Source: Cherax quadricarinatus (lineage: Eukaryota; Arthropoda; Malacostraca; Decapoda; Parastacidae). Taken from it: 64,000 bases of DNA. Positions 12,757-59,474 of this stretch are shown piece by piece. Within the stretch, counting starts at the first letter, position 1. Every line of letters starts with the position of its first letter. The translations under genes and the position numbers were made by a program. The stretch lies in contig NC_091382.1 of assembly GCF_038502225.1 (NCBI RefSeq), forward strand, positions 11,232,243 through 11,296,242, written 5' to 3'. The notes under the pieces are model-generated. The model made no database searches. It was not told the origin of the DNA and saw only the letters and a list, made by a program, of their open reading frames with translations.

Positions 12757-12813
12757 GGTATCTTTATTTCGAAACGTTTCGCCTACACAGTAGGCTTCTT
12801 CAGTCGAGTACAG
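12757..12813 (-). ncRNA. Hammerhead-like ribozyme, H2
   Basis: CGA | CTGAAGA | A | GCCTA-CTGTG-TAGGC | GAAACGTT | TCG; all core positions canonical plus the extra A. Confidence 0.8.
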
Positions 12814-13155
12814 AAAAGTTGATAGAAGCAGAAGATACTTGAAGACGATGTAATCAGTCCATCACCCTTAAAGTTTTGAGGTGGTCAGTCCCTCAGTCTG
12901 GAGAAGAGCATTGTTCCGTTGTCTGAAACAATATGAAGTTGAAGTGACAGGATGGAGCGTTTATATAGTGCCAGGAGGTGAGACGTAGGTTGCTTTGGGA
13001 GGGCAGGTCCCTCTCAAACTCAGCCGTTCTCACTAGTAGAGGTCGAAGTTGATGGTCTGTACCAAGATACCCTTGTGTTGCAGTGTCTGACAGAATGAAC
13101 ATTAAAATGGTATAAAATACCGACAGATTGTCAGGTAAGACACATGCAACAGTTA

Positions 13156-13212
13156 GGTATCTTTATTTCGAAACGTTTCGCCTACACAGTAGGCTTCTTC
13201 AGTCGAGTACAG
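13156..13212 (-). ncRNA. Hammerhead-like ribozyme, H2
   Basis: Identical to the preceding copy, about 400 bp downstream in a direct tandem. Confidence 0.8.
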
Positions 13213-13558
13213 AAAAGTTGATAGAAGCAGAAGATACTTGAAGACGATGTAATCAGTCCATCACCCTTAAAGTTTTGAGGTGGTCAGTCCCTCAGTCTGG
13301 AGAAGAGCATTGTTCCGTTGTCTGAAACAATATGAAGTTGAAGTGACAGGATGGAGCGTTTATATAGTGCCAGGAGGTGAGACGTAGGTTGCTTTGGGAG
13401 GGCAGGTCCCTCTCAAACTCAGCCGTTCTCACTAGTAGAGGTCGAAGTTGATGGTCTGTACCAAGATACCCTTGTGTTGCAGTGTCTGACAGAATGAACA
13501 TTAAAATGGTATAAAATACCGACAGATTGTCAGGTATCTTCTGCTTCTATCAACTTTT

Positions 13559-13615
13559 CTGTACTCGACTGAAGAAGCCTACTGTGTAGGCGAAACGTTT
13601 CGAAATAAAGATACC
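13559..13615 (+). ncRNA. Hammerhead-like ribozyme, H2 (reference copy)
   Basis: Stem I strand CGA at 13566-13568; C3-A9 at 13569-13575; extra A 13576; stem II GCCTA/TAGGC around loop CTGTG; G12 at 13592; ACGT (15.1-16.1) at 13595-13598; U17 at 13599, the predicted cleavage position; TCG at 13600-13602 closes stem I. AATAAA follows at 13604. Confidence 0.82.
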
Positions 13616-13805
13616 TAACTGTTGCATATGTGTCTTACCTGACAATCTGTCGGTATTTTATACCATTTTAATGTTCATTCTGTCAGACACTGCAACACAA
13701 GGGTATCTTGGTACAGACCATCAACTTCGACCTCTACTAGTGAGAACGGCTGAGTTTGAGAGGGACCTGCCCTCCCAAAGCAACCTACGTCTCACCTCCT
13801 GGCAC

Positions 13806-13813
13806 TATATAAA
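13806..13813 (+). promoter_or_regulatory. TATA box of H2 element
   Basis: TATATAAA about 160 bp upstream of the ribozyme at 13960. The same arrangement recurs in the other units. Confidence 0.6.
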
Positions 13814-13959
13814 CGCTCCATCCTGTCACTTCAACTTCATATTGTTTCAGACAACGGAACAATGCTCTTCTCCAGACTGAGGGACTGACCACCTCAAAAC
13901 TTTAAGGGTGATGGACTGATTACATCGTCTTCAAGTATCTTCTGCTTCTATCAACTTTT

Positions 13960-14016
13960 CTGTACTCGACTGAAGAAGCCTACTGTGTAGGCGAAACGTT
14001 TCGAAATAAAGATACC
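13960..14016 (+). ncRNA. Hammerhead-like ribozyme, H2
   Basis: Same sequence as 13559-13615, in the last, partial unit of the element. Confidence 0.8.
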
Positions 14017-14524
14017 TAACTGTTGCATATGTGTCTTACCTGACACACAACCAGTCTTATCCCTGAATAACAACACTATCAACTCAAGAGCTACACCCGT
14101 AAGGGTCATACAGCGCTCCGGGAAGGAATGTGCGAGAGTTCAGAGTGAATGTGGGGTAGGGATGTGCGAACTAAGGGTTAGTGGCGGTGGGGAATTAGTG
14201 CAAGAGTAAAATTTAAATCAAAGTTGGTGCAATAGGTTAGTTTCCATTAAAATATCAAAGAGAGAGTACTCTGAAGTTAGGATTTTCAACAAAGTTAGTG
14301 AGCATGTTAGGGCGGTGTAAACATCAATTCTTGGGCACAACCTACTTCCACACTGAACAAATGTAACACCACCTATGACTGCTGCACCTCTCCTGCCATA
14401 CGGTTTATAAGCTCCTTCTCCGCTCATCTGCCGTATTCTACTCAAGATTGATGGACTGAACACATCGACTCAAGGTTGAGGGACTGATTACCTCATTCTC
14501 CTCCTGTTCTTCAAGTTTCTCCTA

Positions 14525-14580
14525 TGTATGGACTGATGAAGCCACTGTGTGGCGAAACAGTTTCCTCAATAAAGATACCC
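14525..14580 (+). ncRNA. Hammerhead-like ribozyme, H1
   Basis: GGA | CTGATGA | A | GCCA-CTGTG-TGGC | GAAACAGTT | TCC. One inserted A separates AC from GT in stem III. GTAT upstream pairs with ATAC downstream across the AATAAA bulge. Confidence 0.7.
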
Positions 14581-14726
14581 AAGAGTTGCACATGTGTCTA
14601 ATTTACAATAATCTTGAAAGTAATATACTGTGTTTGCTATTTTGCTTCAAACCCCTTCCCTTATAAATATAGTACTTAAATTAACGCTTTCCATAGCAGC
14701 CGCACGTCAATTTTCTATGTAGGACG

Positions 14727-14860
14727 AACCATACCCCGGCTGGGATTGAACCCGCGGTCAGAGAGTCTCAAAACTCCAGCTCTCTGACCGCGGGTTCAAT
14801 CCCAGCCATGGTATGGTTTGTTTGCAATCGTGTCATTACGATTTCGTGAGTCATGTAGGA
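14727..14860 (+). repeat. tRNA-derived SINE-2, palindromic copy
   Basis: Arms at 14727-14767 and 14780-14820 are near-perfect inverse complements centred on 'tctcaaaactcc'. The right arm carries a pol III B-box-like GGGTTCAATCCC. The SINE-2 3' end 'cattacgatttcgtg' follows at 14834. Confidence 0.7.
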
Positions 14861-17010: not shown

Positions 17011-17017
17011 CAAGATG

Positions 17018-17077
17018 GTACTCACCTAATTGTGGTTGCAGGGATCGAGACTCAGCTCCTGGCCCCGCCTCTTCACT

Positions 17078-17155: not shown

Positions 17156-17161
<6 letters not shown>

Positions 17162-17446: not shown

Positions 17447-17510
17447 TAGTAGCGACTAGAGAAGAGGCGGGACCAGGAACTGTGAACTAACCCTTGCAAC
17501 CACAAATATG

Positions 17511-18000: not shown

Positions 18001-18026
18001 CACAACACTGATACCAAAATTGTGAT

Positions 18027-18364
18027 AGTTAGGCAACTTTATTCCGAAACGTTTCGCCTACACAGTAGGCTTTTTCAGTCGAATACACAAAGTAGGCAGG
18101 AACAGTAGAGATGTGAAGACGATGTAATCAGTCCATCACCCTTGAAGTCGAAGAACTTGAGGTTGTCAGTCCCTCAGCCTGGAGAAGTTCAGTTCCATAG
18201 TCAGGAACTATCTGAAGATCAAGCGACAGTGCAGAGACTTAAATACTGTCGGAAGGAGAGGTGCAGAGTAGTAGTAGTAGTGAGAATGTAGCCACTGAGA
18301 GTCCATGTCCCTCTCAGATCTAACATACATACAACCTGTCGGTATTGTATACCATTTTGATGTT
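18027..18364 (-). mobile_element. H2 ribozyme element with 12-bp target duplication
   Basis: CAAAATTGTGAT flanks it at 18015-18026 and 18365-18376. Minus-oriented single unit ending in the terminal hairpin 'ggtattgtatacc' at 18340. Confidence 0.8.
18032..18088 (-). ncRNA. Hammerhead-like motif, H2, G8 mutated
   Basis: CGA | CTGAAAA | A | GCCTA-CTGTG-TAGGC | GAAACGTT | TCG. G8 is A while C3 is kept, so this copy is predicted inactive. Confidence 0.6.
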
Positions 18365-19377: not shown

Positions 19378-20059
19378 TTAAGAGCATAAGAAAGAAAACT
19401 GCAGCAGGCCTACTGGCCCATGCGAGGCAGGTCCAAGTCTCCTACCGGCTTAAGCCAATGCCCCAACCTAGTCAGGTCAGGTCACATTCACTTAAGGAAG
19501 GAACACGGCAACTGATCTAGTAGCACAAGCTAGTCAGGTCCAACTCACATCCACCCACACCCACTCATGTATTTATCTAACCTATTTTTGAAACTACACA
19601 ACGTTTTAGCCTCTATAACTGTACTTGGGAGTTTGTTCCACTCATCCACAACTCTATTACCAAACCAGTGCTTTCCTATATCCTTCCTGAATCTGAATTT
19701 TTCCAACTTAAAACCACTGCTACGAGTCCTGTCTAGGCTAGATATTTTCAGCACGTTATTTACATCCCCCTTATTCCTGTCTTTCATTTATACACCTCAA
19801 TCATACCCCTCCTGATTCTACGCCTTTCTAGAGAGTGCAGATTCAGGGCCTCAGTCTATCCTCATAGGGAAGATTTCTGATACATGGGATCAACTTTGTC
19901 ATCCTCCTTCGTAAGTTTTCCAGAGCATTTATATCCATTCTGTAATACGGTGACTAAAACTGTGCAGCATAATCTAAATGAGGTCTAACCAAGGATATAC
20001 AGAGTTGAAGAACAACCTGAGGACTCCTATTATTTATGCTTCTTGATATGAAGCCAAGG
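19378..20059 (-). mobile_element. LINE A copy 2, 3' part
   Basis: Same 3' UTR and ORF2 C-terminus as 5041-5740 with scattered substitutions; frame 19545-19787 reads 'NNVLKISSLDRTRSSGFKL' and 'FRKDIGKHWFGNRVVDEWN'. Broken at 20059 by LINE B; AAGG at 20056-20059 is repeated at 22352-22355. Confidence 0.9.
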
Positions 20060-22351: not shown

Positions 22352-22355
22352 AAGG

Positions 22356-25929: not shown

Positions 25930-26320
25930 ACATGCAACGCTTTGATATCTTTGTTGACGGGACATTTCCCCTACTCAACAGGCTTCTTCAGTGGAAATAC
26001 ATAGGAGACAGCAGAAGTCGTGAAGATGTAGATACGAGGCGTTCAGTCCCTCAGCCTTGGTGTCTGTTACGCTACGGAGCATAAACCTCCCCAAGGCTGA
26101 GGCACTGAACACCACATACTTCTCCTGGCTAAGGCATTGACCACCTGGCTGAGGCACTGGTCATCTTGTAAGTACAGTATACCTTCATGACTTCTGCTAT
26201 CTCCTGTATATTTATGATAAAGTAGCCTACTAAGCAGGTGAAATATCTGGTCAATACAGATACCAAACTGTACCGTACCCGTCTTACCTATGTACTTGTC
26301 GGTATTGTACACCATTAAAA
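25930..26320. mobile_element. Decayed ribozyme element, palindromic
   Basis: Minus unit then plus unit: 'ggcttcttcagtgg' near 25981 and 'agcctactaagcaggtgaaat' near 26222 are eroded ribozyme cores. It ends in 'gtcggtattgtacacc', the terminal hairpin. Confidence 0.55.
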
Positions 26321-27592: not shown

Positions 27593-27614
27593 TACCTGGA
27601 GGTTATTCCGGGGA

Positions 27615-31620: not shown

Positions 31621-31659
31621 TACAATAGAGTGATAAATTAAACACTTGTGCAACACTTG

Positions 31660-31715
31660 GGTCTCTCAATTGTGGAAACGTCTCGCCAACTAGTGGCTTC
31701 CTCAGTCCAATACAG
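31660..31715 (-). ncRNA. Hammerhead-like motif, H1, decayed
   Basis: GGA | CTGAGGA | A | GCCA-CTAGT-TGGC | GAGACGTT | TCC. A13 is G; otherwise pairing is kept. Confidence 0.6.
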
Positions 31716-31878: not shown

Positions 31879-31932
31879 GTACTGGACTGATGAAGCCAAT
31901 GTGTGGCGAAAAGTTTCCACAATAAAGATACC
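31879..31932 (+). ncRNA. Hammerhead-like motif, H1
   Basis: GGA | CTGATGA | A | GCCA-ATGTG-TGGC | GAAAAGTT | TCC; C15.2 is changed to A. Confidence 0.6.
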
Positions 31933-32004
31933 GAAGTGTTGCACAAGTATCTAATTCGTCATCCTGTTGGTTCTCTGAATCATTTATCTAGACACAATAG
32001 GGTG

Positions 32005-32750
32005 CTGGAGGAAGCGGTGTAGAACGCTTGCCACTCCTCACCGCTTGACGTCTACAAAGAATGGTTTGTGGTCCATGATGGGCCAAAACATCGTCTTAAG
32101 TTACCTCTCCCTATTGCAGGTTAGCTATGAAATGATGAACACTGGGGGATCTTTATCGCGCAGCAACCGTCTTCAGTCTAATATAATACTAGAGACAACT
32201 GAAGCAATGGAAGAAGGACACACATATAGAGTAAAATGAGATCCCCTGTTGATAACATTTCACCAACACAGTGAGCTCGATGAAGTCACAATCTGACTGG
32301 CATGATTAGCCCACTTTGTGGACGAGAAGTTGTAAATATAATGGATCACATTATACTGCACTTTTATCCCTTTTTTCCATCACGTCAGTATTTTATACCA
32401 TTTCTCTCCACAGTAGTAGTGGTAGTTGCCTGGTATTGTCTTGGCTGTGTGTGTGAGAGAGAGAGGAGGGGGTCTTAACCTGCTGTTGGAGATAATTTCT
32501 GAACAGTGGTAGTAGTACTAGTAGTAGTAGTAGTATTGAGATACCCAAGTGTTGTACATGTATCTTAATCGTCAGCTTGTCAGTATTACATACCATCAAT
32601 GAGATGATAGTTATGAAATGATGTACGGAACCCTAACTTTCATTCTTGCAAGCATGCTATAATTCGTTTAGCGTTACAACTGCACACTACCAGATATTCC
32701 AGATATTCATCTCTGGGATGTGTGTTTTCCCTGTGCGTGCGTGTGTGTGT
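32005..32750. other. No recognisable gene; eroded H4-like ribozyme remnant
   Basis: 'agcccactttgtggacgag' and 'ggatcacattatactgc' at 32311-32360 match the H4 element at 58645-58694 but with broken cores. Short (AGT)n at 32515-32535. Confidence 0.4.
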
Positions 32751-34586: not shown

Positions 34587-34640
34587 GTATGGACTGATGA
34601 AGCCACTGTGTGGCGAAACGTTTCCTCAGTAAAGATACCC
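34587..34640 (+). ncRNA. Hammerhead-like ribozyme, H1
   Basis: GGA | CTGATGA | A | GCCA-CTGTG-TGGC | GAAACGTT | TCC, GTAT/ATAC distal pairing. All core positions are canonical apart from the extra A. Confidence 0.8.
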
Positions 34641-34707
34641 AAGAGTTGCACATGTGTCTAATTTATCAACTTCAGGTCTTACACTGTCTGGAAAATTATT
34701 GTGTTGG

Positions 34708-34756
34708 AGTGACAAAGCCAATGAATGGCGAAACGTCTTTACAATATAGATACTCA
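34708..34756 (+). ncRNA. Hammerhead-like motif, decayed
   Basis: GTGACAA | A | GCCA-ATGAA-TGGC | GAAACGTC. Stem II and GAAACGTC are kept, but positions 3 and 8 (G, A) do not pair. Confidence 0.5.
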
Positions 34757-35126
34757 AGTGTTGTACCCGTGTCATCCATCATTTACGTTATATTCGTTAC
34801 ATTCCTTTTCTTCTTTTTTACCAGAACTGGATACAGCAACAACATTGCATTGCTACCGTATTCTACCCGAGTTACATATCCTTGTCATATTGCATCACGC
34901 AGGATGGGAACACTCAAGGTGTTGAAATTTGTCAGCCTGACCTGGGAGACTTCAGTAGGGTAATGAGGATATATTCATATAGTTTATTTAGACATGATAC
35001 ATAGTTGTACAATGGATTATAGTAGTTGGGTGTCAATTCCAAAAGCCCCTTGTATGTAGAGCATTATGGGCAGGCTTAAAGATTCATCAGCTACGAGGAA
35101 CCTTACTGAGCTCCGTGTCAGGGGAT
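34757..35126. other. No recognisable gene
   Basis: Nothing identified. Confidence 0.4.
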
Positions 35127-37875: not shown

Positions 37876-37901
37876 TAATTAAGACACATATGTAACAGTA
37901 G

Positions 37902-37959
37902 GGCATTTTTATTGTTAAAATATTTCGTCTACACAGTAGGCTTCTTCAGTAAAATACAG
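37902..37959 (-). ncRNA. Hammerhead-like motif, H2, decayed
   Basis: CTGAAGA | A | GCCTA-CTGTG-TAGAC | GAAATATT. The stem II closing region and stem III are eroded. Confidence 0.5.
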
Positions 37960-40660: not shown

Positions 40661-40720
40661 GTGATGTAAGTGGTTTAGAAAACCACAAGTTGAAAGTTAA
40701 GACACATGTGCAACATCTCT

Positions 40721-40772
40721 ATACCTTTATTGTAGACGTTTCACCATCCAGTGGCTTTATCTATACAGATTC
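40721..40772 (-). ncRNA. Hammerhead-like motif, H3, decayed
   Basis: Core reads TAGATAA instead of TTGATAA; stem II GCCA-CTGGA-TGGT; GAAACGTC kept. Confidence 0.5.
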
Positions 40773-41246: not shown

Positions 41247-41313
41247 GAACAATGCTCTTCTCCAGACTGAGGGACTGACCACCTGGTTTAGAAAGACACG
41301 TAAGCAAACACTA

Positions 41314-41370
41314 ACATATTTATTAGAAAACGTTTCGGTCCTGGGACCTTGATCACTTCTAACATACAGA
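41314..41370 (-). ncRNA. Hammerhead-like ribozyme, H5 (G3-C8)
   Basis: TTAGAA | GTGATCA | A | GGTCC-CA-GGACC | GAAACGTT | TTCTAA; identical to the plus copy at 44684. Confidence 0.78.
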
Positions 41371-43263
41371 GGTAGAAAGACATTATATATATAGGCGGAG
41401 AGTGAGATGTGACGCACGTGACCTGAGGAATGTCATAAGAACATAAGAATGGAGGAACACTGTAGAAGGCCTACTGGCCCATGCGAGGCAGGTCCATTCT
41501 TATGTTCTTATGACATTCCTCAGGTCACGTGCGTCACATCTCACTCTCCGCCTATATATATAATGTCTTTCTACCTCTGTATGTGCGTTGAGAGGCATGA
41601 GAGGCATGATAGGCTATTGCATGCCTTGAGTGAATGTATCCGTGTAAACGAAGAAGGTAGTCAAGATTAACGCCAAGGACAGTGACAGATTGTGTGATAG
41701 GGAAGTAAGTGCGGGTGTCAGCTGTTCTGAGTTCGATAGGTAATGGAGGATCACGTTTCCTGTAGTTAAAATACGTAATGCTGGATTTTGCTGCATTGGT
41801 TTTGATCCTCCATTTTTGTTCCCAGATGGCTATCCTGTCAACCTCATTTTGTGTGTGAGTGTATCTATATTGGCATGAGTGATAAGTTGTGTAATGTCGT
41901 CTGCATAGGCTAGTGTTATGGAGTTGTGGTATACAGGTGTTGGAATGTCGTTAGTGTATAAAATGTAGAGGGTAGGGGAAAGGACAGATCCCTGGGGATC
42001 CCAGCATTTAGTGTGAAGTAGTCAGAGTAACAGCCTTGGAATTTGATTCTCATGGTACGGCCGTCTAGGAAGTTGCAGAGGAGTTTACGAGTATTGAGAG
42101 GCAGGTTGAAGTTGGTGCAGAATTTGTACTTGAGCCCCTCGTGCCACACAGTGTCAAAAGCTTTTTCAACGTCTTTTGCAACCAGGGCTGTCCTGTTTCT
42201 TTGTTTTGTGTTATGTGGATGTAGTTGAGAATGATGTTAATGGCATCCTGTGTGGATCTGTGTGTTCTGAAGCCAAACTGGCCATCTGAAAGTAGAGAAT
42301 TATGTTCCAGGTATCTGTGAAGGCGATGATTAATGAGTTTTTCAAAGAGTTTTCCTAAAGTTTCGAGGAGGCTGATAGGGCGATAGTTTCTAGGGTCAGA
42401 GTGGTCTTTATTGGGTTTAGGAAGGAGGATAGCAGTAGCAGCTTTGAAGAGGGAAGGGAAGTATCCAGAGGCAAGGGAGGCATTGAGGAGGTTTGTGTAG
42501 GCAGTAATGATAGTCAGGAAGGTGTTTCAGGATAATATGGTTTAGGCCAGAGGCACCAGGAGCCTTTGGAGGAAGGTGTTTGAGGAGAGTTTTAATGTCT
42601 GTGTTGGTGAAAGGAGTGTCGAGTTCTTGGGAGGAGGTAAGAGTGTCTAGATGTATGTGGCTGTCTGGTGTTGTTTCTTGTGTGTGTGCAGTGTTCCAGT
42701 GTTCTATGTTCTGAATGTGTTGAATAAAGTTAGGGCGAGGTGGGTGAGGGTGGAAGATGTTCTCCCAGATGTGTTTGAAGATGTTGGTAGCAGCCTGTGG
42801 GTCTGAGATGTGTGTGTGTTGTTGTGGGTGATGTGTTTGAATTTGTTGGTGGGAGTAGTGCCTCTGATTTTTTTGATAAAGTTCCAGAAGGCTTTAGTGT
42901 TTTTAACACGCTGCCTGTCCGCTTGTTGTATTAGTCGTGACCAGTGATTGTTGTGGTCTTGGTCTAGGCTGTGTAAAATGTTGTTTCTAAGGTAAGTGAG
43001 ATCTAATCGGACTTGATTAAATCTGTGTGTGTTGTAGAGGAAGCGGTTGTGGTAGCAGATAATTAGTCTTCTTGTTCTGAGTGACGGTTTGAAGGAATAA
43101 CGAGTGGTGTGAGTTTTCTTTGGTATTGCGATGTTGGCTGCTTGTGTAATGGTGTCCTGGATGAGATCAAGTTGAGTATCGATGTCAGAGATAGGTTTGT
43201 TGTTGTGCAAGAAAGGTATAAAATACCGACAATATGAAAGTTAAGACACATGTGCAACATCTG

Positions 43264-43315
43264 GATATCTTTATTGTAGACGTTTCGCCATCCAGTGGCT
43301 TTATCAATACAGATT
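43264..43315 (-). ncRNA. Hammerhead-like ribozyme, H3 (U3-A8)
   Basis: TGTA | TTGATAA | A | GCCA-CTGGA-TGGC | GAAACGTC | TACA. Stem I is 4 bp, position 17 is C. Confidence 0.72.
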
Positions 43316-43442
43316 CTAGGACATAATAGGAAGACAGAAGAACTATATACAAAAGATGAGGTAATCAGTCCCTCGGCCTTGGAGTTAGTGTTCACAGCAT
43401 CGTGGTGGAGGAGAGTCTGGAGCAAAGGCAAGAAGACTGGCG

Positions 43443-43450
43443 TTTATATA
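43443..43450 (-). promoter_or_regulatory. TATA box of H3 element
   Basis: TATATAAA on the minus strand, about 145 bp upstream of the ribozyme at 43264-43315. Confidence 0.55.
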
Positions 43451-43679
43451 CGCGTCAGTGGAAGGGACGGGCAGCAGACGAGGGCAGTCACTGGTAGGCG
43501 GGATTCCCCAGTGGAAGTAGGTCCTTCCCAAAGAGATGGGTTAGTTGCAGCAGCCGTGAAGAAGGTCTTGTAGATGTCCTCTGAACCAAGATTCCATGAT
43601 GTTGCAGTGTCTGACAAGTTGTGCAAGAAAGGTATAAAATACCGACAATATGAAAGTTAAGACACATGTGCAACATCTG

Positions 43680-43733
43680 GATATCTTTATTGTAGACGTT
43701 TCGCCATCCAGTGGCTTTATCAATACAGATTCT
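43680..43733 (-). ncRNA. Hammerhead-like ribozyme, H3 (U3-A8)
   Basis: Same as 43264-43315, in the second tandem unit. Confidence 0.72.
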
Positions 43734-43885
43734 AGGACATAATAGGAAGACAGAAGAACTATATACAAAAGATGAGGTAATCAGTCCCTCGGCCTTGGAG
43801 TTAGTGTTCACAGCATCGTGGTGGAGGAGGGACTGATTACCTCATCTTTTGTATATAGTTCTTCTGTCTTCCTATTATGTCCTAG

Positions 43886-43938
43886 AATCTGTATTGATAA
43901 AGCCACTGGATGGCGAAACGTCTACAATAAAGATATCC
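43886..43938 (+). ncRNA. Hammerhead-like ribozyme, H3 (U3-A8), reference copy
   Basis: U3 at 43894, A8 at 43899; TGTA at 43890-43893 pairs with TACA after C17; distal ATC/GAT pairing spans the AATAAA bulge. Confidence 0.74.
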
Positions 43939-44683
43939 AGATGTTGCACATGTGTCTTAACTTTCATAGGTTTGTTGTTGTAGTCATAACACCTCTACAA
44001 ATCCCTAATACGTCCTCTGATAACTTACTCTCCTCTAGCCCTCTCTCTTGCAGCAAAAACAAACTTACTTAAACTGCAGCGTGTCCAGAACAAGGCGCTG
44101 CGCTGGGTGCTTGATGTCAGATGGGAGGACTTCGCCACAAGCGAGTCTCTCCATGCCCAGTTAGACGTTCCTGCGCTGAATCTGTACTGGAAGAGGCTCA
44201 GTGACAGACAGATAGACAAACTTGAGACACGACATGACTACTGGACCTCTCTCCTTGACGAAGACATTCGCAGACCCACAACCTTTTCTACTCCTTGCAT
44301 GATCCTGCTCCTAACCCTACTTACAAATAACCTTGGATCCGCTGACAGGTACCTTCTAAGACAGGTACCTTCTAAGACAGGTACCATTCTCTGACCCACG
44401 TTCGCCTTAGCATTTTTGGGTTAAGACATGACTCAGTTCTGCACTCCTCTCTAGCTCTAAACGTCGCAAGTCCCTTACTCCCAGCTCACCCCACCGGAGT
44501 CCCAACAGAAGAACCTGAATTTCTCTTCTCAATATCTGTCCCACGATCGCCTTTGCTGCTGGGTTAAGCCCTGGCTCTATTTCTACGACTAAGAACACTC
44601 CTCTCCAGCACTATTCTTCGTCTGTCCCGTCTTCCCCGCTCATCCCATTTGGGATCTTACCTGAACTTTCGTTCGTTCGTTCC

Positions 44684-44740
44684 TCTGTATGTTAGAAGTG
44701 ATCAAGGTCCCAGGACCGAAACGTTTTCTAATAAATATGT
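44684..44740 (+). ncRNA. Hammerhead-like ribozyme, H5 (G3-C8), reference copy
   Basis: TTAGAA (44692-44697) pairs perfectly with TTCTAA (44726-44731). Core GTGATCA is 44698-44704 (G3, C8), extra A 44705, stem II GGTCC/GGACC 44706-44717, G12 44718, ACGT 44721-44724, U17 44725. Confidence 0.8.
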
Positions 44741-44880
44741 TATAGTGTTTGCTTACGTGTCTTTCTAAACCAACTTGTCGGTATTTATTACCAAGGTTTA
44801 TACCACTGACCACCTCAAAACTTTAAGGGTGATGGACTGATTACATCGTCTTCAAGTCTCTTCTGCTTCTATCAACTTTT

Positions 44881-44937
44881 CTGTACTCGACTGAAGAAGC
44901 CTACCGTGTAGGCGAAACGTTTCGAAATAACGATACC
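44881..44937 (+). ncRNA. Hammerhead-like ribozyme, H2
   Basis: CGA | CTGAAGA | A | GCCTA-CCGTG-TAGGC | GAAACGTT | TCG. Confidence 0.78.
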
Positions 44938-44965
44938 TAACTGTTGCATGTGTGTCTTGCCTAAC

Positions 44966-45180
44966 GGACTGAACACATTGACTTCAAGCTGAGGGACTTA
45001 TTATCTCAAATACTACTTCTCTAAGGTTGATGGACTAATTACATCTTTACTGTGCTACTACACCGGCTGCCTCTGTGTTTGACTGAAGAAGGTGAAACGT
45101 TTCAACAACAAAGATACCCAACTGTTGTACATGTCTTAATCGTCAACCTGTCGGTATTTTACATCATTTTCAACACAGGT
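44966..45180 (+). repeat. Ribozyme-element unit lacking stem II
   Basis: TTGA | CTGAAGA | AGG | TGAAACGTT | TCAA near 45078-45102: the stem II hairpin is deleted but stem I still pairs. Ends with 'gtcggtattttacatc'. Confidence 0.6.
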
Positions 45181-45882: not shown

Positions 45883-45939
45883 CTGTACTTGACTGAAGAA
45901 GCCTACTGTGTAGGCGAAACGTTTCATAATAAAGATACC
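45883..45939 (+). ncRNA. Hammerhead-like ribozyme, H2 variant
   Basis: TGA | CTGAAGA | A | GCCTA-CTGTG-TAGGC | GAAACGTT | TCA; stem I differs from other H2 copies by a compensated pair. Confidence 0.8.
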
Positions 45940-46158
45940 TAACTGTTGCATATGTGTCTTACCTAACAACCTGTCGGTATTTTATACCATTTTAATGTTC
46001 AATCTGTCAGACACTGCAACACAAGGGTATCTCGGTACAGACCTGCAATCAACTTCGACAACTTCCACTAGTGAGAGCGGCTGGATTTGAGAAGGACCTG
46101 ACGTCTCAACATCTGAGTTCTTACCTCTCCTAGTGGCCTACGTCTCACCTCTTGGCGC

Positions 46159-46310: not shown

Positions 46311-46367
46311 CTGTACTTGACTGAAGAAGCCTACTGTGTAGGCGAAACGTTTCATAATAAAGATACC
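46311..46367 (+). ncRNA. Hammerhead-like ribozyme, H2 variant
   Basis: Identical to 45883-45939 (TGA/TCA stem I). Confidence 0.8.
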
Positions 46368-46511
46368 TAACTGTTGCATATGTGTCTTACCTAACAACAC
46401 GTAATAGAAAGATGAGACAGTGAAAGCAGAAACTAAGATTTTCTTTTTCGACCCATGGTGCTTGACAGGTATGTGATTTTTGATAGTTTAATCTCTGGAA
46501 ACTCATTAAAG

Positions 46512-50109: not shown

Positions 50110-50345
50110 GTGTGGTAGTTGATGTTCTAGTGACTGATCAGTCAAGATTGATGGACTAATTACATCGACTCCAGGTTGAGGGACTGATGACCTCAGTCTC
50201 CTGATCGTCACTATTCCTCTTTGTATTGGACTGATGAAGCCACTGTGGCGAAACGTTTCCTCCATATAGATACCCAAGTGTTGTACATGTGTCTCCTTCA
50301 TGAACTTGTAGGTTCTCTGAACCATTTATCTACACATATTATAAT
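50110..50345 (+). mobile_element. H1 ribozyme element, single unit
   Basis: 'gattgatggactaattacat', ribozyme at 50222, then terminal hairpin 'ggttctctgaacc' (50312-50324). Confidence 0.7.
50222..50275 (+). ncRNA. Hammerhead-like ribozyme, H1, short loop II
   Basis: GGA | CTGATGA | A | GCCACTGTGGC | GAAACGTT | TCC; loop II shortened by two bases. Confidence 0.7.
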
Positions 50346-50877: not shown

Positions 50878-50945
50878 GGCGGGGTGGCTAAAGTACTATA
50901 TACATTGATACATTGTGTACAGATTCCAATCCTGCTGTGGACTGA
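50878..50945 (+). repeat. tRNA-like SINE head, weak
   Basis: 'gggtggctaaagta' resembles the SINE-1 A-box region and 'gattccaatcctgc' an eroded B box, at similar spacing. Present in both duplication arms. Confidence 0.4.
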
Positions 50946-51192
50946 GGTATATGTATGTACAAAACCACGAGGAGAGTTCAATGATAGTTCTAGGCCTTTC
51001 ATGTTGCAATCAATGCATTAGGAGCTTGCAATGTTGCAGAAAAGAGGTCGAAGCAAATACGGTCACAGAGAACGTCTTTGCTGGAGTGAGAGAGGCGATA
51101 GGCAGAAGGCAGGAAGTGCCCCAGGCATACCAATACCCATAGCCAGAAAGGTTGAATATTATAGCATTAGAAAAACAGCCAGCCCACAAGCA

Positions 51193-51292
51193 CTAATATT
51201 GTGTAAAGTAAAAGGACACAAGTGCAACTAATGTGACATTTATTGTGGTAACGTTTCGCTCTCCAGGAGCTTTATCAAGCCATTACAAACAG
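51193..51292 (-). mobile_element. H6 ribozyme segment present only in left arm
   Basis: Between 'actaatattgt' and 'cagactacgctatg' the left arm has this ~95-bp segment, while the right arm has an unrelated ~45 bp (60254-60298). Confidence 0.65.
51232..51290 (-). ncRNA. Hammerhead-like ribozyme, H6 (U3-A8)
   Basis: TGGC | TTGATAA | A | GCTC-CTGGA-GAGC | GAAACGTT | ACCA. One mismatch at the base of stem I, then TGG/CCA. Confidence 0.65.
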
Positions 51293-51850: not shown

Positions 51851-51905
51851 ACCACTGATAGGGTGAATATATAAAATACCCATATGTAACACACGTGTAA
51901 CAGTT

Positions 51906-51964
51906 GGGTATCTTTATTGATGAAACGTTTCGTCTACATAGTAGGCTTCTTCAGTTAAATACAG
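51906..51964 (-). ncRNA. Hammerhead-like ribozyme, H2
   Basis: TAA | CTGAAGA | A | GCCTA-CTATG-TAGAC | GAAACGTT | TCA; one mismatch in each stem. Confidence 0.6.
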
Positions 51965-52266
51965 AGTTAGCAGGTGTAATAGTGAAGTAAAGATGTAATT
52001 AGTTCATCAGCCTTAGAGAAACAGTACTTGAGGCAATCAGTCCCTCAGCTTGGAGTCAATGTGTTCAGTCCATCTATGGACTGAAGGTGTAGTAGTTAAG
52101 TAAAGTTGATGTAATCAGTCCATCAACACTGGAGAAATAGTATTTGAGGTGCTCAGTCCCTCAGCCTGGAAATTAACTCTTCTCGAAGCTGATTACCTCA
52201 AATACTATTTTTCCAAGGTTGATGGACTAATTACATCATCTTTACTTCACTACTACACCTGCTGCC

Positions 52267-52323
52267 TCTGTATGACTGAAGAAGCCTACTGTGTAGGCGA
52301 AACATTTCAAAAATAAAGATACC
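52267..52323 (+). ncRNA. Hammerhead-like ribozyme, H2 variant
   Basis: TGA | CTGAAGA | A | GCCTA-CTGTG-TAGGC | GAAACATT | TCA. Confidence 0.72.
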
Positions 52324-52436
52324 TAACTGTTACAAATGTCTTACAGCGACTGATTACTCACTGTTACTCAATTGATCTCAAACTGTTTTTCAAGTATTTT
52401 CTGTTTAAGGACACCAGCAAAGATTGCAGTGTCGAG

Positions 52437-52892: not shown

Positions 52893-53132
52893 TTAATTCA
52901 TTAGTGACTGTTGGGTGACCCTGTGATGGACTTAAGCGGTGTGAATCACTACAGTGAACCTCTGCCACAGTAACCATGGACTGAGTGGTGCTGCGCCCAC
53001 TGGCTCCCCTGTCATGTTATATCCCAACATTTTCTGTAATATTTTCTTAGCGCTGATTACGTCATGTGTTGGGAATCCCGTTTTCCCGTCACGTCTCCAG
53101 GAGGCGAGATGGTAAGCCTCGTGAACACTGTG

Positions 53133-54668
53133 TACGCTCCAGAAGACAAGACAACCCCAGAATATTTTAATATTTCTATGTACGCTCCAGTAGACAAGAC
53201 AACCCCAGAATATTTTAATATTTCTATGTACGCTCCAGTAGACAAGACAACCCCAGAATATTTTAATATTTCTATGTACGCTCCAGTAGACAAGGCAACC
53301 CCAGAATATTTTAATATTTCTATGTATGCTCCAGTAGACAAGACAACCCCAGAATATTTTAATATTTCTATGTACGCTCCAGTAGACAAGGCAACCCCAG
53401 AATATTTTAATATTTCTATGTACGCTCCAGTAGACAAGACAGCGCCAGAATATTTTAATATTTCTATGTACGCTCCAGTAGACAAGACAACCCCAGAATA
53501 TTTTAATATTTCTATGTACGCTCCAGTAGACAAGGCAACCCCAGAATATTTTAATATTTCTATGTACGCTCCAGTAGACAAGACAACCCCAGAATATTTT
53601 AATATTTCTATGTACGCTCCAGTAGACAAGACAACCCCAGAATATTTTAATATTTCTATGTACGCTCCAGTAGACAAGACAACCCCAGAATATTTTAATA
53701 TTTCTATGTACGCTCCAGTAGACAAGACAAGCCCAGAATATTTTAATATTTCTATGTACGCTCCAGTAGACAAGACAACCCCAGAATATTTTAATATTTC
53801 TATGTACGCTCCAGTAGACAAGACAACCCCAGAATATTTTAATATTTCTATGTACGCTCCAGAAGACAAGACAACCCCAGAATATTTTAATATTTCTATG
53901 TACGCTCCAGAAGACAAGACAACCCCAGAATATTTTAATATTTCTATGTACGCTCCAGTAGACAAGACAAGCCCAGAATATTTTAATATTTCTATGTACG
54001 CTCCAGTAGACAAGACAACCCCAGAATATTTTAATATTTCTATGTACGCTCCAGTAGACAAGACAACCCCAGAATATTTTAATATTTCTATGTACGCTCC
54101 AGTAGACAAGACAGCGCCAGAATATTTTAATATTTCTATGTACGCTCCAGTAGACAAGACAACCCCAGAATATTTTAATATTTCTATGTACGCTCCAGTA
54201 GACAAGACAGCGCCAGAATATTTTAATATTTCTATGTACGCTCCAGTAGACAAGACAACCCCAGAATATTTTAATATTTCTATGTACGCTCCAGTAGACA
54301 AGACAGCGCCAGAATATTTTAATATTTCTATGTACGCTCCAGTAGACAAGGCAACCCCAGAATATTTTAATATTTCTATGTACGCTCCAGTAGACAAGAC
54401 AGCGCCAGAATATTTTAATATTTCTATGTACGCTCCAGTAGACAAGACAACCCCAGAATATTTTAATATTTCTATGTACGCTCCAGTAGACAAGGCAACC
54501 CCAGAATATTTTAATATTTCTATGTACGCTCCAGTAGACAAGACAGCGCCAGAATATTTTAATATTTCTATGTACGCTCCAGTAGACAAGACAACCCCAG
54601 AATATTTTAATATTTCTATGTACGCTCCAGTAGACAAAACAGCGCCAGAATATTTTATAATTTCTAAG
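53133..54668. repeat. 48-bp minisatellite, 32 units
   Basis: Unit reads TACGCTCCAGTAGACAAGAC then 'aaccccagaatattttaat' and 'atttctatg'. Variants are confined almost wholly to two sites: GTA/GAA (units 1, 16, 17) and ACAACC / GCAACC / ACAGCG / ACAAGC. Three frames stay open throughout because 48 is a multiple of three; plus frame 53064-54674 would give a 16-residue repeat 'YAPVDKTTPEYFNISM'. Variant order is not random (alternating TT/TA types in units 20-32). I treat it as non-coding. Confidence 0.93.
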
Positions 54669-54778
54669 TTTTAATTTTGGGCTACTTAACCCAAGAAACA
54701 AAAGAAGTGCGATGGCAAACATGTGATGAAAATATTTTTGAAAACGACCAGTTGAAGAATGAGACACGTGCAACATTT

Positions 54779-54835
54779 GGGAATCTTTACCGAGGAAACG
54801 TTTCGCCAGCCAGTGACTTCTTCAGTCCAATACAG
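54779..54835 (-). ncRNA. Hammerhead-like ribozyme, H1
   Basis: GGA | CTGAAGA | A | GTCA-CTGGC-TGGC | GAAACGTT | TCC. Confidence 0.68.
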
Positions 54836-54882
54836 AGAATAAGAGAGGAAGATGATTAGGTAAGACACATATGCAACAGTTA

Positions 54883-54939
54883 GGTATCTTTATTTCGAAA
54901 CGTTTCGCCTACACAGTAGGCTTCTTCAGTCAAGTACAG
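54883..54939 (-). ncRNA. Hammerhead-like ribozyme, H2, stem I U-G intermediate
   Basis: TGA | CTGAAGA | A | GCCTA-CTGTG-TAGGC | GAAACGTT | TCG; the third stem I pair is a U-G wobble between the CGA/TCG and TGA/TCA forms. Confidence 0.75.
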
Positions 54940-56204: not shown

Positions 56205-56986
56205 ATTTTACCTTTATTCTCTGTATTGGACTGTTATTCTCTGTATTGGAATGTTATTCTCTATTGGACTGTCATTCTCTGTATTGGACTGTTATTCTCT
56301 GTATTGGACTGTTATTCTCTGTATTGGACTGTTATTCTCTGTATTGGACTGTTATTCTCTGTATTGGACTGTTATTCTCTGTATTGGACTGTTATTCTCT
56401 GTATTGGACTGTTATTCTCTGTATTGGACTGTTATTCTCTGTATTGGACTGTTATTCTCTGTACTGGACTGTTATTCTCTGTATTGGACTGTTATTCCCT
56501 GTACTGGACTGTTATTCTCTATATTGGACTGTTATTCTCTGTATCGGACTGTTATTCTCCGTACTGGACTGTTATTCTCTGTACTGGACTGTTATTCTCT
56601 ACTGGACTGTCATTCCCTGTACTGGACCGTTATTCTATATATTGGACTGTTATTCTCTATATTGGACTGTTATTCTCTATATTGGACTGTTATTCTCTAT
56701 ATTGGACTGTTATTCTCTATATTGGACTGTTATTCTCTATATTGGACTGTTATTCTCTATATTGGACTGTTATTCTCTATACTGGACTGTTATTCCCTAT
56801 ATTGGACTGTTATTCCCTATAATGGGCTGTTATTCCCTGCATTGGACTGTTATTCCCTGTAATGGACTGTTATTCTCTATATTGGACTGTTATTCTCTAT
56901 ATTGGACTGTTATTCCCTATAATGGACTGTTATTCCCTGTAATGGACTGTTATTCCCTGTAATGGACTGTTATTCCCTGTAATGGA
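56205..56986. repeat. 20-bp minisatellite, about 39 units, derived from ribozyme stem I
   Basis: Unit CTGTATTGGACTGTTATTCT with CTATA, CTGTAC and CCCTG variants grouped in blocks. The unit 'ctctgtattggactg' is the normal H1 sequence just 5' of and into the CTGATGA core. The array runs directly into 'gcgaaacgtttcttcaataa' (56991), the 3' half of an H1 ribozyme. Confidence 0.9.
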
Positions 56987-57229
56987 CTAGCGAAACGTTT
57001 CTTCAATAAAGATTCCCAAATGCTACACAAGCGCCTCATGGCAAATATGTCTTTGAATTTACGTTTGTAGGTGGAGAAGAGGTTGTAACACTGACACACT
57101 GATAAAACACACTAGACAAACTCTTCATTAAATAAAGAATATATGGTAAACACATGAAACGTTACATGAAAAACAAGTGTACCAAATTGTGGAAAAAGAC
57201 ACTTATGTACAGTTCAGGACATTTATTAT

Positions 57230-57450
57230 ATGTCCTGAACTGTACATAAGTTTGAGGTAATCAGTCCCTCAACCTGGTTGATGGACCGATTACCTCAAAA
57301 CTTCTACTCTCCTTACCCATTTCTACTTTGTATTGGACTGATGAAGCCACTGTGTGGCGAAACGTTTCTTCAATAAAGATTCCCATGTGTTGCATAAGTG
57401 TCTCAATTCTTCAACTTGTCGGTTTTCAAAACCATTCATCACATGATAGT
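57230..57450 (+). mobile_element. H1 ribozyme element, single unit
   Basis: 'gttgatggaccgattacctc', ribozyme 57330, 'ttgcataagtgtctcaattc', terminal hairpin 'ggttttcaaaacc' (57421-57433). A short inverse 'gaggtaatcagtccctcaac' precedes it. Confidence 0.7.
57330..57384 (+). ncRNA. Hammerhead-like ribozyme, H1
   Basis: GGA | CTGATGA | A | GCCA-CTGTG-TGGC | GAAACGTT | TCT (one G-U pair). Confidence 0.76.
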
Positions 57451-57626
57451 AATTACAGATAAGGTAGATTATAGTGGAAAAATGAATATGTTATTAGAAG
57501 ACGGAGGAACTTACGTGCCTCTTAACCCAGTAGCTAGCTTGGGAATCTGTGGACGAACTCACCAGTCGTAGATCAATGGTTCAAAGAACCGACATGTTGT
57601 TAAATTAGACACATGTGCAACTCTTG

Positions 57627-57681
57627 GGTATCTTCATTGAGGAAACGTTTCGCCACACAGTGGCTTCATCAGTCCATACAA
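57627..57681 (-). ncRNA. Hammerhead-like ribozyme, H1
   Basis: GGA | CTGATGA | A | GCCA-CTGTG-TGGC | GAAACGTT | TCC. Confidence 0.8.
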
Positions 57682-57761
57682 AGGAGAATCTTGAAGAACA
57701 GGAGGAGAATGAGTTAATCAGTCCCTCAACCTTGAGTCGATGTGGTCAGTCCATCAATCTT

Positions 57762-57815
57762 GAATAGACTGATGAAGCCACTGTGTGGCGAAACGTTTCC
57801 TCAATGAAGATACCC
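57762..57815 (+). ncRNA. Hammerhead-like ribozyme, H1
   Basis: AGA | CTGATGA | A | GCCA-CTGTG-TGGC | GAAACGTT | TCC; the third stem I pair is lost. Confidence 0.72.
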
Positions 57816-58083
57816 AAGAGTTGCACATGTGTCTAATTTAACAACTCACCAGTCACTCACCTCTGGTCTCCTTAATTTTCTATATAAAAAAAAATTGCAT
57901 TTCAACTGTCACACCTACTAAGAAGGTTGTGATAGCTATTTAAACTGGCAGAACAGTCTGGTTGATCAGAAGGTCAACAAGTTTGACTTCATATCAAGTT
58001 TCCAGAGTTGAACTCTCAAAACTGATCACAGATCCGGCAGTACACCACCACCTTCATGAAAATTAGACACGGGTGCAACATCT

Positions 58084-58137
58084 GGGTATCTTTATTGCAA
58101 ATGTTTCGCCATCCAGTGGCTTTATCTATACAAATTC
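58084..58137 (-). ncRNA. Hammerhead-like motif, H3, decayed
   Basis: Core TAGATAA, stem II GCCA-CTGGA-TGGC, GAAACATT, TGC. Confidence 0.5.
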
Positions 58138-58260
58138 AAGGACATATATGGAAGACAGTAAAACTATATACGAAAGCTGAGGTAATCAGTCCCTCAGCCT
58201 AAGAGACTGATTACCTCATCTTTTGTATACGCTTCTACTGTTTTCCCATTATGTCCTTGA

Positions 58261-58312
58261 ATTTGTATTGATAAAGCCACTGGATGGCGAAACATTTGCA
58301 ATAAAGATACCC
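58261..58312 (+). ncRNA. Hammerhead-like ribozyme, H3 (U3-A8)
   Basis: TGTA | TTGATAA | A | GCCA-CTGGA-TGGC | GAAACATT | TGCA; a G-U wobble keeps stem I. Confidence 0.65.
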
Positions 58313-58368
58313 AGATGTTGCACCCGTGTCTTATTTTCATGAATCTAGTGGGTACTGTATACCGTTGT

Positions 58369-58530
58369 GCAAGACAGGTATACAATACCGACAAGATGAA
58401 AGTTAAGACACATGTGCAACATCTGGTTATCTTTTTTGTAGACGTTTCGCCATCCAATAAAGATAACCAGATGTTGCACAAGTGTCTTAACTTTCATCTT
58501 GTCGGTATTGTATACCTGTCTTGCACAACT
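58369..58530. repeat. H3 terminal palindrome with truncated ribozyme
   Basis: 'ttgtgcaagacaggtataca' and its inverse flank a centre where 'gtagacgtttcgccatcc' switches strand to 'aataaagataaccagatg'. Stem II is cut. Confidence 0.65.
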
Positions 58531-58589
58531 TGTCAGGCACCGCAACATCATGGTATGGAAATATAAACACAAATGCAGTATAATGCGAT

Positions 58590-58640
58590 CCTTTATTGAC
58601 TACGTTTCGCCCACACAGTGGGCTTTTCCAAGTGACTTGA
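58590..58640 (-). ncRNA. Hammerhead-like motif, H4, A6 changed
   Basis: CAC | TTGGAAA | A | GCCCA-CTGTG-TGGGC | GAAACGTA | GTC; A6 is G and stem I is mismatched, unlike the plus copy. Confidence 0.5.
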
Positions 58641-58683
58641 AAAAGCCCACTGTGTGGGCGAAACGTAGTCAATAAAGGATCAC
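58627..58683 (+). ncRNA. Hammerhead-like ribozyme, H4 (U3-A8), reference copy
   Basis: GAC (58634-58636) pairs with GTC (58668-58670). Core TTGAAAA 58637-58643 with U3 and A8, extra A 58644, stem II GCCCA/TGGGC, G12 58660, ACGT 58663-58666, A17 58667. Confidence 0.75.
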
Positions 58684-58898
58684 ATCATACTGCATTTGTG
58701 TTTATATTTCCATTGTGTCGGTATTTTATACCATTTATTTCCAACATCATGGTATCTTGATTCAGAGGACATCTACAAGACCTTCTTCACGGCTACTGCA
58801 ACTAACCCATCTCTTTGGGAAGGACCTACTTCCACTGGGGAATCCCGCCTACCAGTGACTTTGCCCTCGTCTGCTGCCCGTCCCTAGCCACTGACGCC

Positions 58899-58906
58899 TA
58901 TATAAC
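58899..58906 (+). promoter_or_regulatory. TATA box of H3 element
   Basis: TATATAAC about 144 bp upstream of the ribozyme core at 59043. Confidence 0.5.
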
Positions 58907-59033
58907 CGCCAGTCTTCTTGTCTTTACTCCAGATTCTCCTCCACCACGATGCTGTGAACACTAACTCCAAGGCCGAGGGACTGATTACCTCATCTTTTGT
59001 ATATAGTTCTACTGTCTTCCTATTATGTCCTAG

Positions 59034-59086
59034 AATCTGTATTGATAAAGCCACTGGATGGCGAAACGTCTACAATAAAGATATCC
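59034..59086 (+). ncRNA. Hammerhead-like ribozyme, H3 (U3-A8)
   Basis: TGTA | TTGATAA | A | GCCA-CTGGA-TGGC | GAAACGTC | TACA. Confidence 0.74.
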
Positions 59087-59200
59087 AGATGTTGCACATG
59101 TGTCTTAACTTTCAATTTGGGTAGGACCTACTTCCACTGGGGAATCCCGCCTACCAGTGACTATGCCCTCGTCTGCTACACGTCTCTCTTCACTGACGCC

Positions 59201-59208
59201 TATATAAG
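59201..59208 (+). promoter_or_regulatory. TATA box of H3 element
   Basis: TATATAAG about 143 bp upstream of the interrupted ribozyme core at 59344. Confidence 0.5.
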
Positions 59209-59333
59209 CGCCAGTCTCCTTACCTGTGCTTCAGAATCTCTACAACCACGGTGCTCTAAACACCACCTCCAAGGCTGAGGGACTGATTACCTCATCTTTT
59301 GTATATAGTTCTTCCGTTTTCTAATTATGTCCA

Positions 59334-59474
59334 AGAATTTGTATTGATAAAGCCACTGGAGGCCAGGAGGCCTGGTCACAGACCGGGCCGCGGGGGCGTT
59401 GACCCCCGAAACTCTCTCCAGGTAAACTCCAGGCTCTCCAGGATGGCGAAACGTCTACAATAAAGATAACCAGA
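59334..59474 (+). ncRNA. H3 hammerhead-like ribozyme, insertion-interrupted
   Basis: TGTA | TTGATAA | A | GCCA-CTGGA before 59361 and TGGC | GAAACGTC | TACA after 59443. Confidence 0.65.
59361..59443 (+). mobile_element. LINE B/D-type 3' tail inserted in ribozyme loop
   Basis: 'ggcctggtcacagaccgggc', 'gggggcgttgacccccgaaa', 'ctctctccaggtaa' match the 3' ends of the B/D LINE group. GGA occurs at both junctions. Confidence 0.7.

Follow-up and report, generated by a model that had tools for sequence, protein, structure and literature searches.

Minimal hammerhead ribozyme motifs of Cherax quadricarinatus as probable terminal-repeat pieces of Penelope-like elements inserted from both ends of a staggered break

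Introduction

A stretch of 64,000 nt from the decapod Cherax quadricarinatus (NCBI RefSeq assembly GCF_038502225.1, contig NC_091382.1, positions 11,232,243 to 11,296,242, forward strand; in the following the window) contains a dispersed motif with the order of a hammerhead ribozyme core, which an earlier sequence-only reading had described as about forty copies in six subfamilies (here H1 to H6). Is this motif a hammerhead, which elements carry it, and how did its copies get inserted? At a probability of roughly 0.85, we consider the repeats to be pieces of the terminal repeats (pLTRs) of Penelope-like retrotransposons (Penelope-like elements, PLEs) and of their short relatives, which likely entered the genome through reverse transcription at both ends of a staggered DNA break.

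Minimal type I hammerheads of PLEs were reportedly described by Cervera and De la Pena in 2014 and by Lunse, Weinberg and Breaker in 2017. According to passages of PMC6155905, PMC7761336 and PMC7229834, such hammerheads lack helix III, reside in PLE pLTRs and occur in thousands of dispersed copies in animal genomes. For PAc, a Poseidon element of Anolis carolinensis, the relevant passages of PMC11167929 report that the PLE protein cuts and extends both strands in vitro and starts at two sites, whose interval equals the genomic tail. For Penelope of Adineta vaga, parts of PMC3846280 describe inverted pLTRs, one of which bears a 31-bp tail, target duplications of 8-10 bp and a TATA box within the pLTR; the word hammerhead is absent from the text of that paper.

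Results

Recognition and fold of the motif

The strict pattern CTGANGA-N6..30-GAAAC has 18 matches in the window versus 1.23 expected from shuffles. An iterated profile search started from 17 seeds yields 43 matches at E<1e-3 between positions 9168 and 59490, some of them partial or decayed. A scan for fully paired stem II, GAAA and at least 3 stem I pairs reports 23 motifs in the window versus 0 in the reversed window. Two diverged H5 copies that the profile missed (residue 3 at 41356 on the minus strand and at 44698 on the plus strand) were recovered by a structure scan. This amounts to about 45 copies (43 from the profile, 2 from the structure scan), somewhat more than the forty claimed. 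Copies are indeed found within the proposed span 12757..59474, while their full range, 9168 to 59490, is wider. Rfam covariance models gave no match at gathering score in the window and no hammerhead family even at E up to 10, and a scan of viral contigs with an H1/H2 pattern gave 0 matches.

Covariation was assessed on an alignment of 37 copies (30 distinct), with partial copies and the two H5 copies left out. Here, 89.1% of the stem I and II cells are paired versus 77.5% in shuffles, and 36 cells are changed on both sides versus 9.8. The covariation score of 0.345 (0.144 shuffled) was reached in 0/500 shuffles, and slid partners give at most 0.090. The proposed hammerhead fold with compensated changes in both stems is thereby supported, and the stem I and II variants listed earlier are all present, including the U-G intermediate in the copy at 54863-54931.

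Most copies fit the minimal type I core, i.e., CUGANGA...GAAA with open stem I, closed stem II, A15.1-U16.1 and H17. Helix III is shrunk to a self-complementary ACGU or less, and in most rows H17 and stem I come immediately after GAAACGU. GAAA and U16.1 are retained in nearly all copies, and an extra A between A9 and stem II is found in 37/37 aligned copies. A similar extra A occurs in a chrysanthemum viroid hammerhead. On the sequence level, the motif is confirmed as a minimal type I hammerhead, for which self-cleavage is predicted.

The core pair 3-8

Hammerhead residues 3 and 8 pair with each other. Among the 30 distinct aligned rows, this pair is C-G in 19, U-A in 7 and U-G in 1, and it is unpaired in 3; both H5 copies of the window show G3-C8 together with seven contiguous stem I pairs. 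The U3-A8 and G3-C8 variants retain the 3-8 pair, decayed copies do not. CTGANGA is not universal: UUGANAA takes its place in H3, in H4 and in one of the H6 copies, UUGACGA in the second H6 copy and GUGAUCA in H5. The sequence-only reading was right about the motif itself and overlooked the swaps at the core pair, the additional A and the fact that insertions are built as palindromes.

The genome-wide check proposed with that reading was run as pattern counts instead of a covariance model, i.e., as exact matches of one pattern with fixed stem II in the 3.95-Gb genome of the window. We find 115,087 C-G, 38,004 U-A, 3,177 C.A and 1,629 U.G copies (reversed-pattern controls 1, 0, 0 and 1, respectively), and the G3-C8 pattern adds 7,188 copies (reversed controls 0). 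A slightly different pattern (fixed 2-nt loop, any base at 3) counts 202 copies with another base at position 8. These numbers mirror large families and their decay and history, not independent changes.

The G3-C8 combination is familiar as a laboratory double mutant, one that PMC11167929 cites. A natural G3-C8 hammerhead is not announced in the titles and abstract openings of the literature searched, which do not establish its absence from print. The compensated swap from C3-G8 to U3-A8 is known from several natural hammerheads, as stated in a passage of Perreault et al. 2011 (PMC3088659); compared to these, U3-A8 is here the fixed state in PLE families whose copies number tens of thousands, and it is accompanied by a family with G3-C8.

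Carrier elements and short units

Membership in PLEs, which had been a matter of inference, is now supported by coding sequence. H4 hammerheads (U3-A8) flank an open reading frame (ORF) of 757 codons with reverse transcriptase (RT) and GIY-YIG endonuclease. In locus L063, this ORF lies between two hammerheads that repeat at a period of 2,589 nt, and the unit has a head-to-head partner; TATAAATA starts 47 nt upstream of residue 3. RVT_1 and GIY-YIG exceed the Pfam cut-offs in L023, L063 and L064. Inverted H4 pairs 3.7-4.5 kb apart (L021-L023) enclose frames with RT and GIY-YIG motifs, and inverted partners are also found in L064-L067 and L071-L073, i.e., pLTRs occur in tandem or inverted arrangement.

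The same picture is obtained when starting from the enzyme. A genome search for GIY-YIG gave 14,992 first-look candidates, with at least 150 over the cut-off among those scored, and 30 loci around the best matches were examined. At 22 of them, a U3-A8 hammerhead lies 231-382 nt downstream on the same strand, while a C3-G8 hammerhead within 450 nt is found at none of the 30. A frame whose GIY-YIG match is below the Pfam cut-off (E 0.00099; 19.8 vs 22.6 bits) is followed by an H5 core some 200 nt downstream. Against the PDB, the PLE protein has weak matches (telomerase RT at E 0.26). Among the best 120 of its 702 protein relatives, the few named by organism come from Cherax, Penaeus, Oratosquilla and Portunus; the named relatives are mostly uncharacterised crustacean proteins.

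H1 and H2 (both C-G at the core pair) and H3 (U-A) form tandem units of 372, 399 and 421 nt, respectively (variants 332 to 428). Given a unit length of about 370-430 nt, they have no room for a PLE ORF; the longest open frames over two units range over 49-160 codons, with 54, 89 and 160 codons as the longest on either strand. The 160-codon H3 frame (L026 reference) crosses the junction of two H3 units without a stop. The short units likely depend on the PLE enzyme in trans.

A second stem-loop and two end sites

Downstream of the hammerhead follow AATAAA and then a stem whose pairing partner immediately precedes the start codon or the corresponding position. A hairpin of the type GGTAT..ATACC forms the apex of this second stem-loop. 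The structure was drawn from 18 sequences (16 distinct), and in these same sequences 96.9% of the cells are paired versus 92.4% in shuffles, and double changes affect 17 cells versus 3.9 and 8 pairs versus 2.5.

Insert ends of H1-H4 (183 copies) cluster at about +76 (A) and about +107 (B) from residue 3, with some of the copies falling outside both clusters or continuing into the next unit. H1 ends range over 66-79 and 102-111, those of H2, H3 and H4 are nearer to +76/+107, and H5 ends are at 73-75 and 108. Both sites sit in an internal loop, either side of the apical hairpin and about 31 nt apart. The A-B interval corresponds to the published 30-40 bp PLE tail between two RT start sites.

Palindromic insertions

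Neighbouring copies of the same family are mostly oriented tail-out. In three lists, each restricted to its first 100 places, the tail-out:tail-in ratios are 26:3, 20:0 and 16:0 for distances up to 1 kb and 30:10, 27:4 and 24:1 for up to 6 kb. We measured 249 copies from the window and the partly overlapping loci L001-L094 and counted insertions once by their flanks. Of the resulting 54 palindromic insertions, 48 have outer ends that could both be assigned to a class, and every one of these is discordant, i.e., combines one A and one B end (29 B/A, 19 A/B). This table replaces two earlier ones that handled arrays and duplicates less well (34/34 classed discordant among 52 pairs; 28/28 for 36 insertions). 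H5 palindromes, examined later with end motifs from their own copies, show one A and one B in 2/2 cases, such that the rule is based on 50 insertions from one genome, partly picked as pairs. It is not announced in the titles and abstract openings of the literature searched, which leaves its absence from print unestablished.

The discordant ends are accompanied by duplicated target sequence. Flanks match over at least 7 bp in 45/48 insertions versus 43/1,581 control (shuffled) pairings, and over at least 10 bp in 44/48 versus 3/1,581. Match lengths are mostly 12-14 bp, which may include bases common to the insert end. For the H5 insertion 41284-44805, the joined flanks less one copy of the 9-bp duplicate equal the H2 unit in 107/108 positions across the junction, which shows that it arrived as one event; the outer 32 nt of its left flank are unmatched to the H2 unit. 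The H3 palindrome 43202-43968 is in turn nested inside this insertion.

The 5' ends of the arms are scattered over many places, and 13/108 arms are longer than one unit. The two arms of L026 are unequal and hold four and two hammerheads, respectively. Mean arm identity is 0.905-0.969 within palindromes versus 0.804-0.912 between insertions, with short arms running into their partners; for this reason the minima (0.71-0.90) are unusable, and we draw no conclusion on a shared template.

Features of the window

Coordinates are compiled in Table 1.

Table 1. Hammerhead copies and related insertions in the window. Hammerhead coordinates are from the profile search unless stated; a dot marks features covering both strands.
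Feature	Position	Strand	Remarks
H1 palindromic insertion	9131..9569	.	hammerheads 9168-9235 -, 9497-9564 +; ends B/A; 9-bp flank match ATTTATAAT
H6 hammerhead + tail	12490..12554	+	core U3.G8; stem I GGC/GCC, stem II GUUC/GAAC
H2 palindromic tandem array	12695..14045	.	four hammerheads (- - + +), ~400 nt apart per strand; ends B/A; 12-bp flank match
H2 hammerhead + tail	12737..12805	-	
H2 hammerhead + tail	13138..13204	-	
H2 hammerhead + tail	13567..13635	+	core C3-G8
Covarying stem-loop with end sites A and B, H2 copy	13606..13713	+	
H2 hammerhead + tail	13968..14036	+	
H1 hammerhead + tail	14531..14599	+	
H2-like hammerhead	18021..18080	-	core C3.A8, unpaired
Decayed hammerhead copy	25931..25992	-	
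Decayed hammerhead copy	26220..26271	+	
H1-like hammerhead	31641..31707	-	tail-out neighbour of 31885
H1-like hammerhead	31885..31952	+	
Tail fragment	32536..32564	+	E 4.5e-4
H1 hammerhead + tail	34592..34659	+	
Decayed hammerhead copy	34707..34773	+	
H2-like hammerhead	37882..37950	-	
H3-like hammerhead	40700..40764	-	core U3-A8
H5 palindromic insertion	41284..44805	.	residue 3 at 41356 -, 44698 +; ends A/B; 9-bp target duplication; within H2 copy
H5 hammerhead	41323..41362	-	stem I UUAGAA/UUCUAA, core G3-C8; structure scan
H3 palindromic insertion	43202..43968	.	(- - +); ends B/A; 16-bp flank match
H3 hammerhead + tail	43244..43309	-	core U3-A8
H3 hammerhead + tail	43660..43725	-	core U3-A8
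H3 hammerhead + tail	43892..43957	+	core U3-A8
H5 hammerhead	44692..44731	+	stem I UUAGAA/UUCUAA, core G3-C8; structure scan
H2 hammerhead + tail	44889..44957	+	
H2-like hammerhead, stem II deleted	45081..45136	+	
H2 hammerhead + tail	45891..45959	+	first of 428-nt tandem
H2 hammerhead + tail	46319..46387	+	second of 428-nt tandem
H1 hammerhead + tail	50229..50294	+	
H6 hammerhead	51215..51278	-	core U3-A8; closing stem I pair mismatched
H2-like palindrome	51870..52344	.	51889-51955 -, 52274-52341 +; left end unclassed, duplication not found
H1-like hammerhead	54761..54827	-	
H2 hammerhead	54863..54931	-	U-G intermediate in stem I
Partial copy, 3' half	56985..57035	+	
H1 hammerhead + tail	57336..57403	+	
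H1 palindromic insertion	57568..57845	.	57607-57674 -, 57767-57834 +; ends B/A; 12-bp flank match AACTCACCAGTC
H3-like tail-out pair	58065..58331	.	58065-58129 -, 58266-58331 +; core U3-A8
H3-like tail-out pair	58406..58487	.	both arms truncated in or near hammerhead
H4 tail-out pair	58566..58702	.	58566-58627 - truncated; 58638-58702 +, core U3-A8; type that flanks the PLE ORF
H3 hammerhead + tail	59040..59105	+	
H3 copy split by other sequence	59342..59490	+	5' part 59342-59360 below profile cut-off; 3' part 59441-59490

Besides these features, Rfam reported MIR821 matches at 43658-43959 and 58364-58534 on both strands. We rejected them, as they are below the gathering score and coincide with inverted repeats of hammerhead insertions; such repeats are a possible source of false microRNA calls. 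Between 56191 and 56988, forty copies of the 20-bp unit CTGTTATTCTCTGTATTGGA run into the partial hammerhead copy at 56985. At 53131-54666, a 48-bp unit is repeated thirty-two times and is open in several frames on both strands, and a 659-bp inverted repeat (50430-51088 and 63342-64000, 99% complementary) reaches the window end.

Other coding sequence is present as well. On the minus strand, 5230-7641 holds an 803-codon frame with endonuclease and RVT_1 of LINE type, not of PLEs. An RT-like protein is encoded by inverted, near-identical copies (97-98%) at 20056-22353 and 27592-29884, which are separated by about 5-9 kb. Positions 1116-2702 of locus L095 form a 529-codon open frame between the arms of an H5 palindrome.

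Discussion

The A/B rule, the tail-out arms and the target duplications likely reflect two-ended target-primed reverse transcription. A dimer of the PLE protein would cut both target strands and, judging from the duplications, leave 3' overhangs of about 9-14 nt. Each target 3' end would then prime on one of the two start sites, A or B, and the two complementary DNAs (cDNAs) would be joined head to head after 5' truncation. Two cDNAs, one per target strand and each with its own start site, would account for all three observations at once. Multi-unit arms suggest circular templates, template jumping or unequal exchange, since linear templates only shorten from copy to copy. More tentatively, tandem transcripts might be cleaved into single units by hammerheads that act as dimers via the self-complementary ACGU remnant, perhaps helped by protein; units ligated into circles might then permit several units per arm.

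Several observations speak against this interpretation or restrict it. Regarding the carriers, 8/30 GIY-YIG loci have no hammerhead at the expected downstream place, no autonomous partner of H1-H3 was found, and unit identity inside one array is 99.8-100% in L026 and L080 versus 95.8% in L036. Regarding the insertions, the tail-out bias in the window alone is weak, with 10 tail-out versus 5 tail-in pairs within 400-500 bp for all families combined (permutation fraction 0.03-0.04), and the share of palindromes is biased because many loci were fetched for a -,+ pair in the match lists. The limits of the A and B classes were fixed after the end clusters had been seen, 6/54 palindromes are unclassable, and 3/48 classed ones come without duplication. 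Strong resemblance between the sequences of A and B is limited to H4 and a single H1 type; it is moderate in H2 and not clear elsewhere. None of the 108 arms has its 5' end at the predicted cleavage site (3.2 by chance), so that there is no visible sign of cleaved linear RNA having served as template. Finally, passages of PMC11167929 state for PAc that hammerhead mutants leave insertion in vitro unchanged, that the ribozyme needs the protein, and that no difference in start site between the strands was seen in vitro.

The same in vitro results, i.e., insertion by the anole hammerhead mutants and RNA left uncleaved without protein (PMC11167929, in the part concerned), speak for the idea that the fold is merely vestigial, or serves protein binding as part of the RNA bound by the PLE protein, with no role for cleavage. 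The lack of helix III, the extra A in the core and the arm ends (0/108 at the cleavage site) are also in line with it. Nevertheless, we regard it as unlikely, given that binding hardly requires 3-8 complementarity across C-G, U-A and G-C together with GAAA and U16.1 in nearly all copies. Slightly less likely still is that the short units are metazoan non-LTR retrozymes and not PLE derivatives. They do resemble these (PMC7229834, as far as its passages on retrozymes go) in being short, non-coding and arranged in tandem, with a length of about 370-430 nt and a type I hammerhead, and four units of one array are 99.8-100% identical. However, the hammerheads of metazoan retrozymes are described there as canonical, with typical helix sizes and loop contacts, whereas the Cherax ones are minimal and PLE-like, without helix III in the aligned copies. 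Moreover, stem-loop, end sites and palindromic insertion are common to short units and PLEs. Of the two kinds of element that the sequence-only reading had named, PLEs and retrozymes, we favour the former; the motif without helix III and the stem-loop and end sites held in common with PLEs make the retrozyme label less apt.

Palindromes might instead arise by self-priming, in which an antisense template is copied by fold-back. This has been proposed for rotifer Penelope, for which inverted pLTRs in head-to-head arrangement, one of them bearing a tail, are in print (PMC3846280, passages on Penelope). We deem this improbable: fold-back of a single cDNA would make the copied arm repeat the end of the first and would not yield two different fixed ends, yet these are found in 48/48 classed insertions. 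In addition, the arms may differ in unit number, as in L026. Miniature DNA transposons with terminal inverted repeats would fit the inverted ends and the fairly constant length of the target duplications, but can be practically dismissed, because the ends differ (A vs B), the arms are cut off at many places and the associated ORF codes for RT and GIY-YIG.

Two-ended insertion of PLE terminal repeats remains our preferred explanation, and much of its setting is already in print, namely minimal PLE hammerheads, inverted pLTRs, the tail on one pLTR and target duplications. As far as the descriptions in citing papers allow the comparison, the Cherax copies match published minimal PLE hammerheads in the absence of helix III, the location in pLTRs and the dispersal; set beside the same descriptions, the U3-A8 and G3-C8 core families and the fixed extra A are features of the Cherax copies. 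With PAc, as portrayed in parts of PMC11167929, they share the pLTR-ORF-pLTR order, internal RT start at two sites and a tail equal to the interval. The hammerhead of PAc is located at the ORF start, while that of L063 lies wholly upstream of the start codon, and each classed Cherax insertion uses one start site per end, whereas no start-site difference between strands was seen for PAc in vitro. Inverted pLTRs, short target duplications and a tail of about 31 nt are also known from Adineta vaga Penelope; there, the tail is called optional and the palindromes are ascribed to self-priming (PMC3846280, same passages), while here the tail is at exactly one end of all classed palindromes. The literature passages on PLEs that we consulted contain neither a tail at exactly one palindrome end nor a stem-loop common to short units nor a G3-C8 family.

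A more far-reaching statement combines two parts. PLEs would integrate by a paired-end reaction, in which a single RNA stem-loop presents one start site on either strand of its internal loop, a dimer of the protein sets one target 3' end on each, and every insertion thereby gains exactly one A and one B end; and C3-G8 would have been rebuilt in nature as U3-A8 and G3-C8, i.e., a rescue mutant of the laboratory would exist as a family of thousands. For both to hold jointly, we see a chance slightly below one half. A role of the hammerhead in making unit circles may have its place in such a scheme.

For the open question of PLE integration, the A/B rule provides a directly testable statement, that of a two-site, two-strand reaction, for which one genome provides a very large record of insertion events. 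The natural U3-A8 and G3-C8 families amount to a set of core mutants of the hammerhead that is already available, and their copies are numerous enough to examine whether selection acts on the ribozyme in a mobile element.

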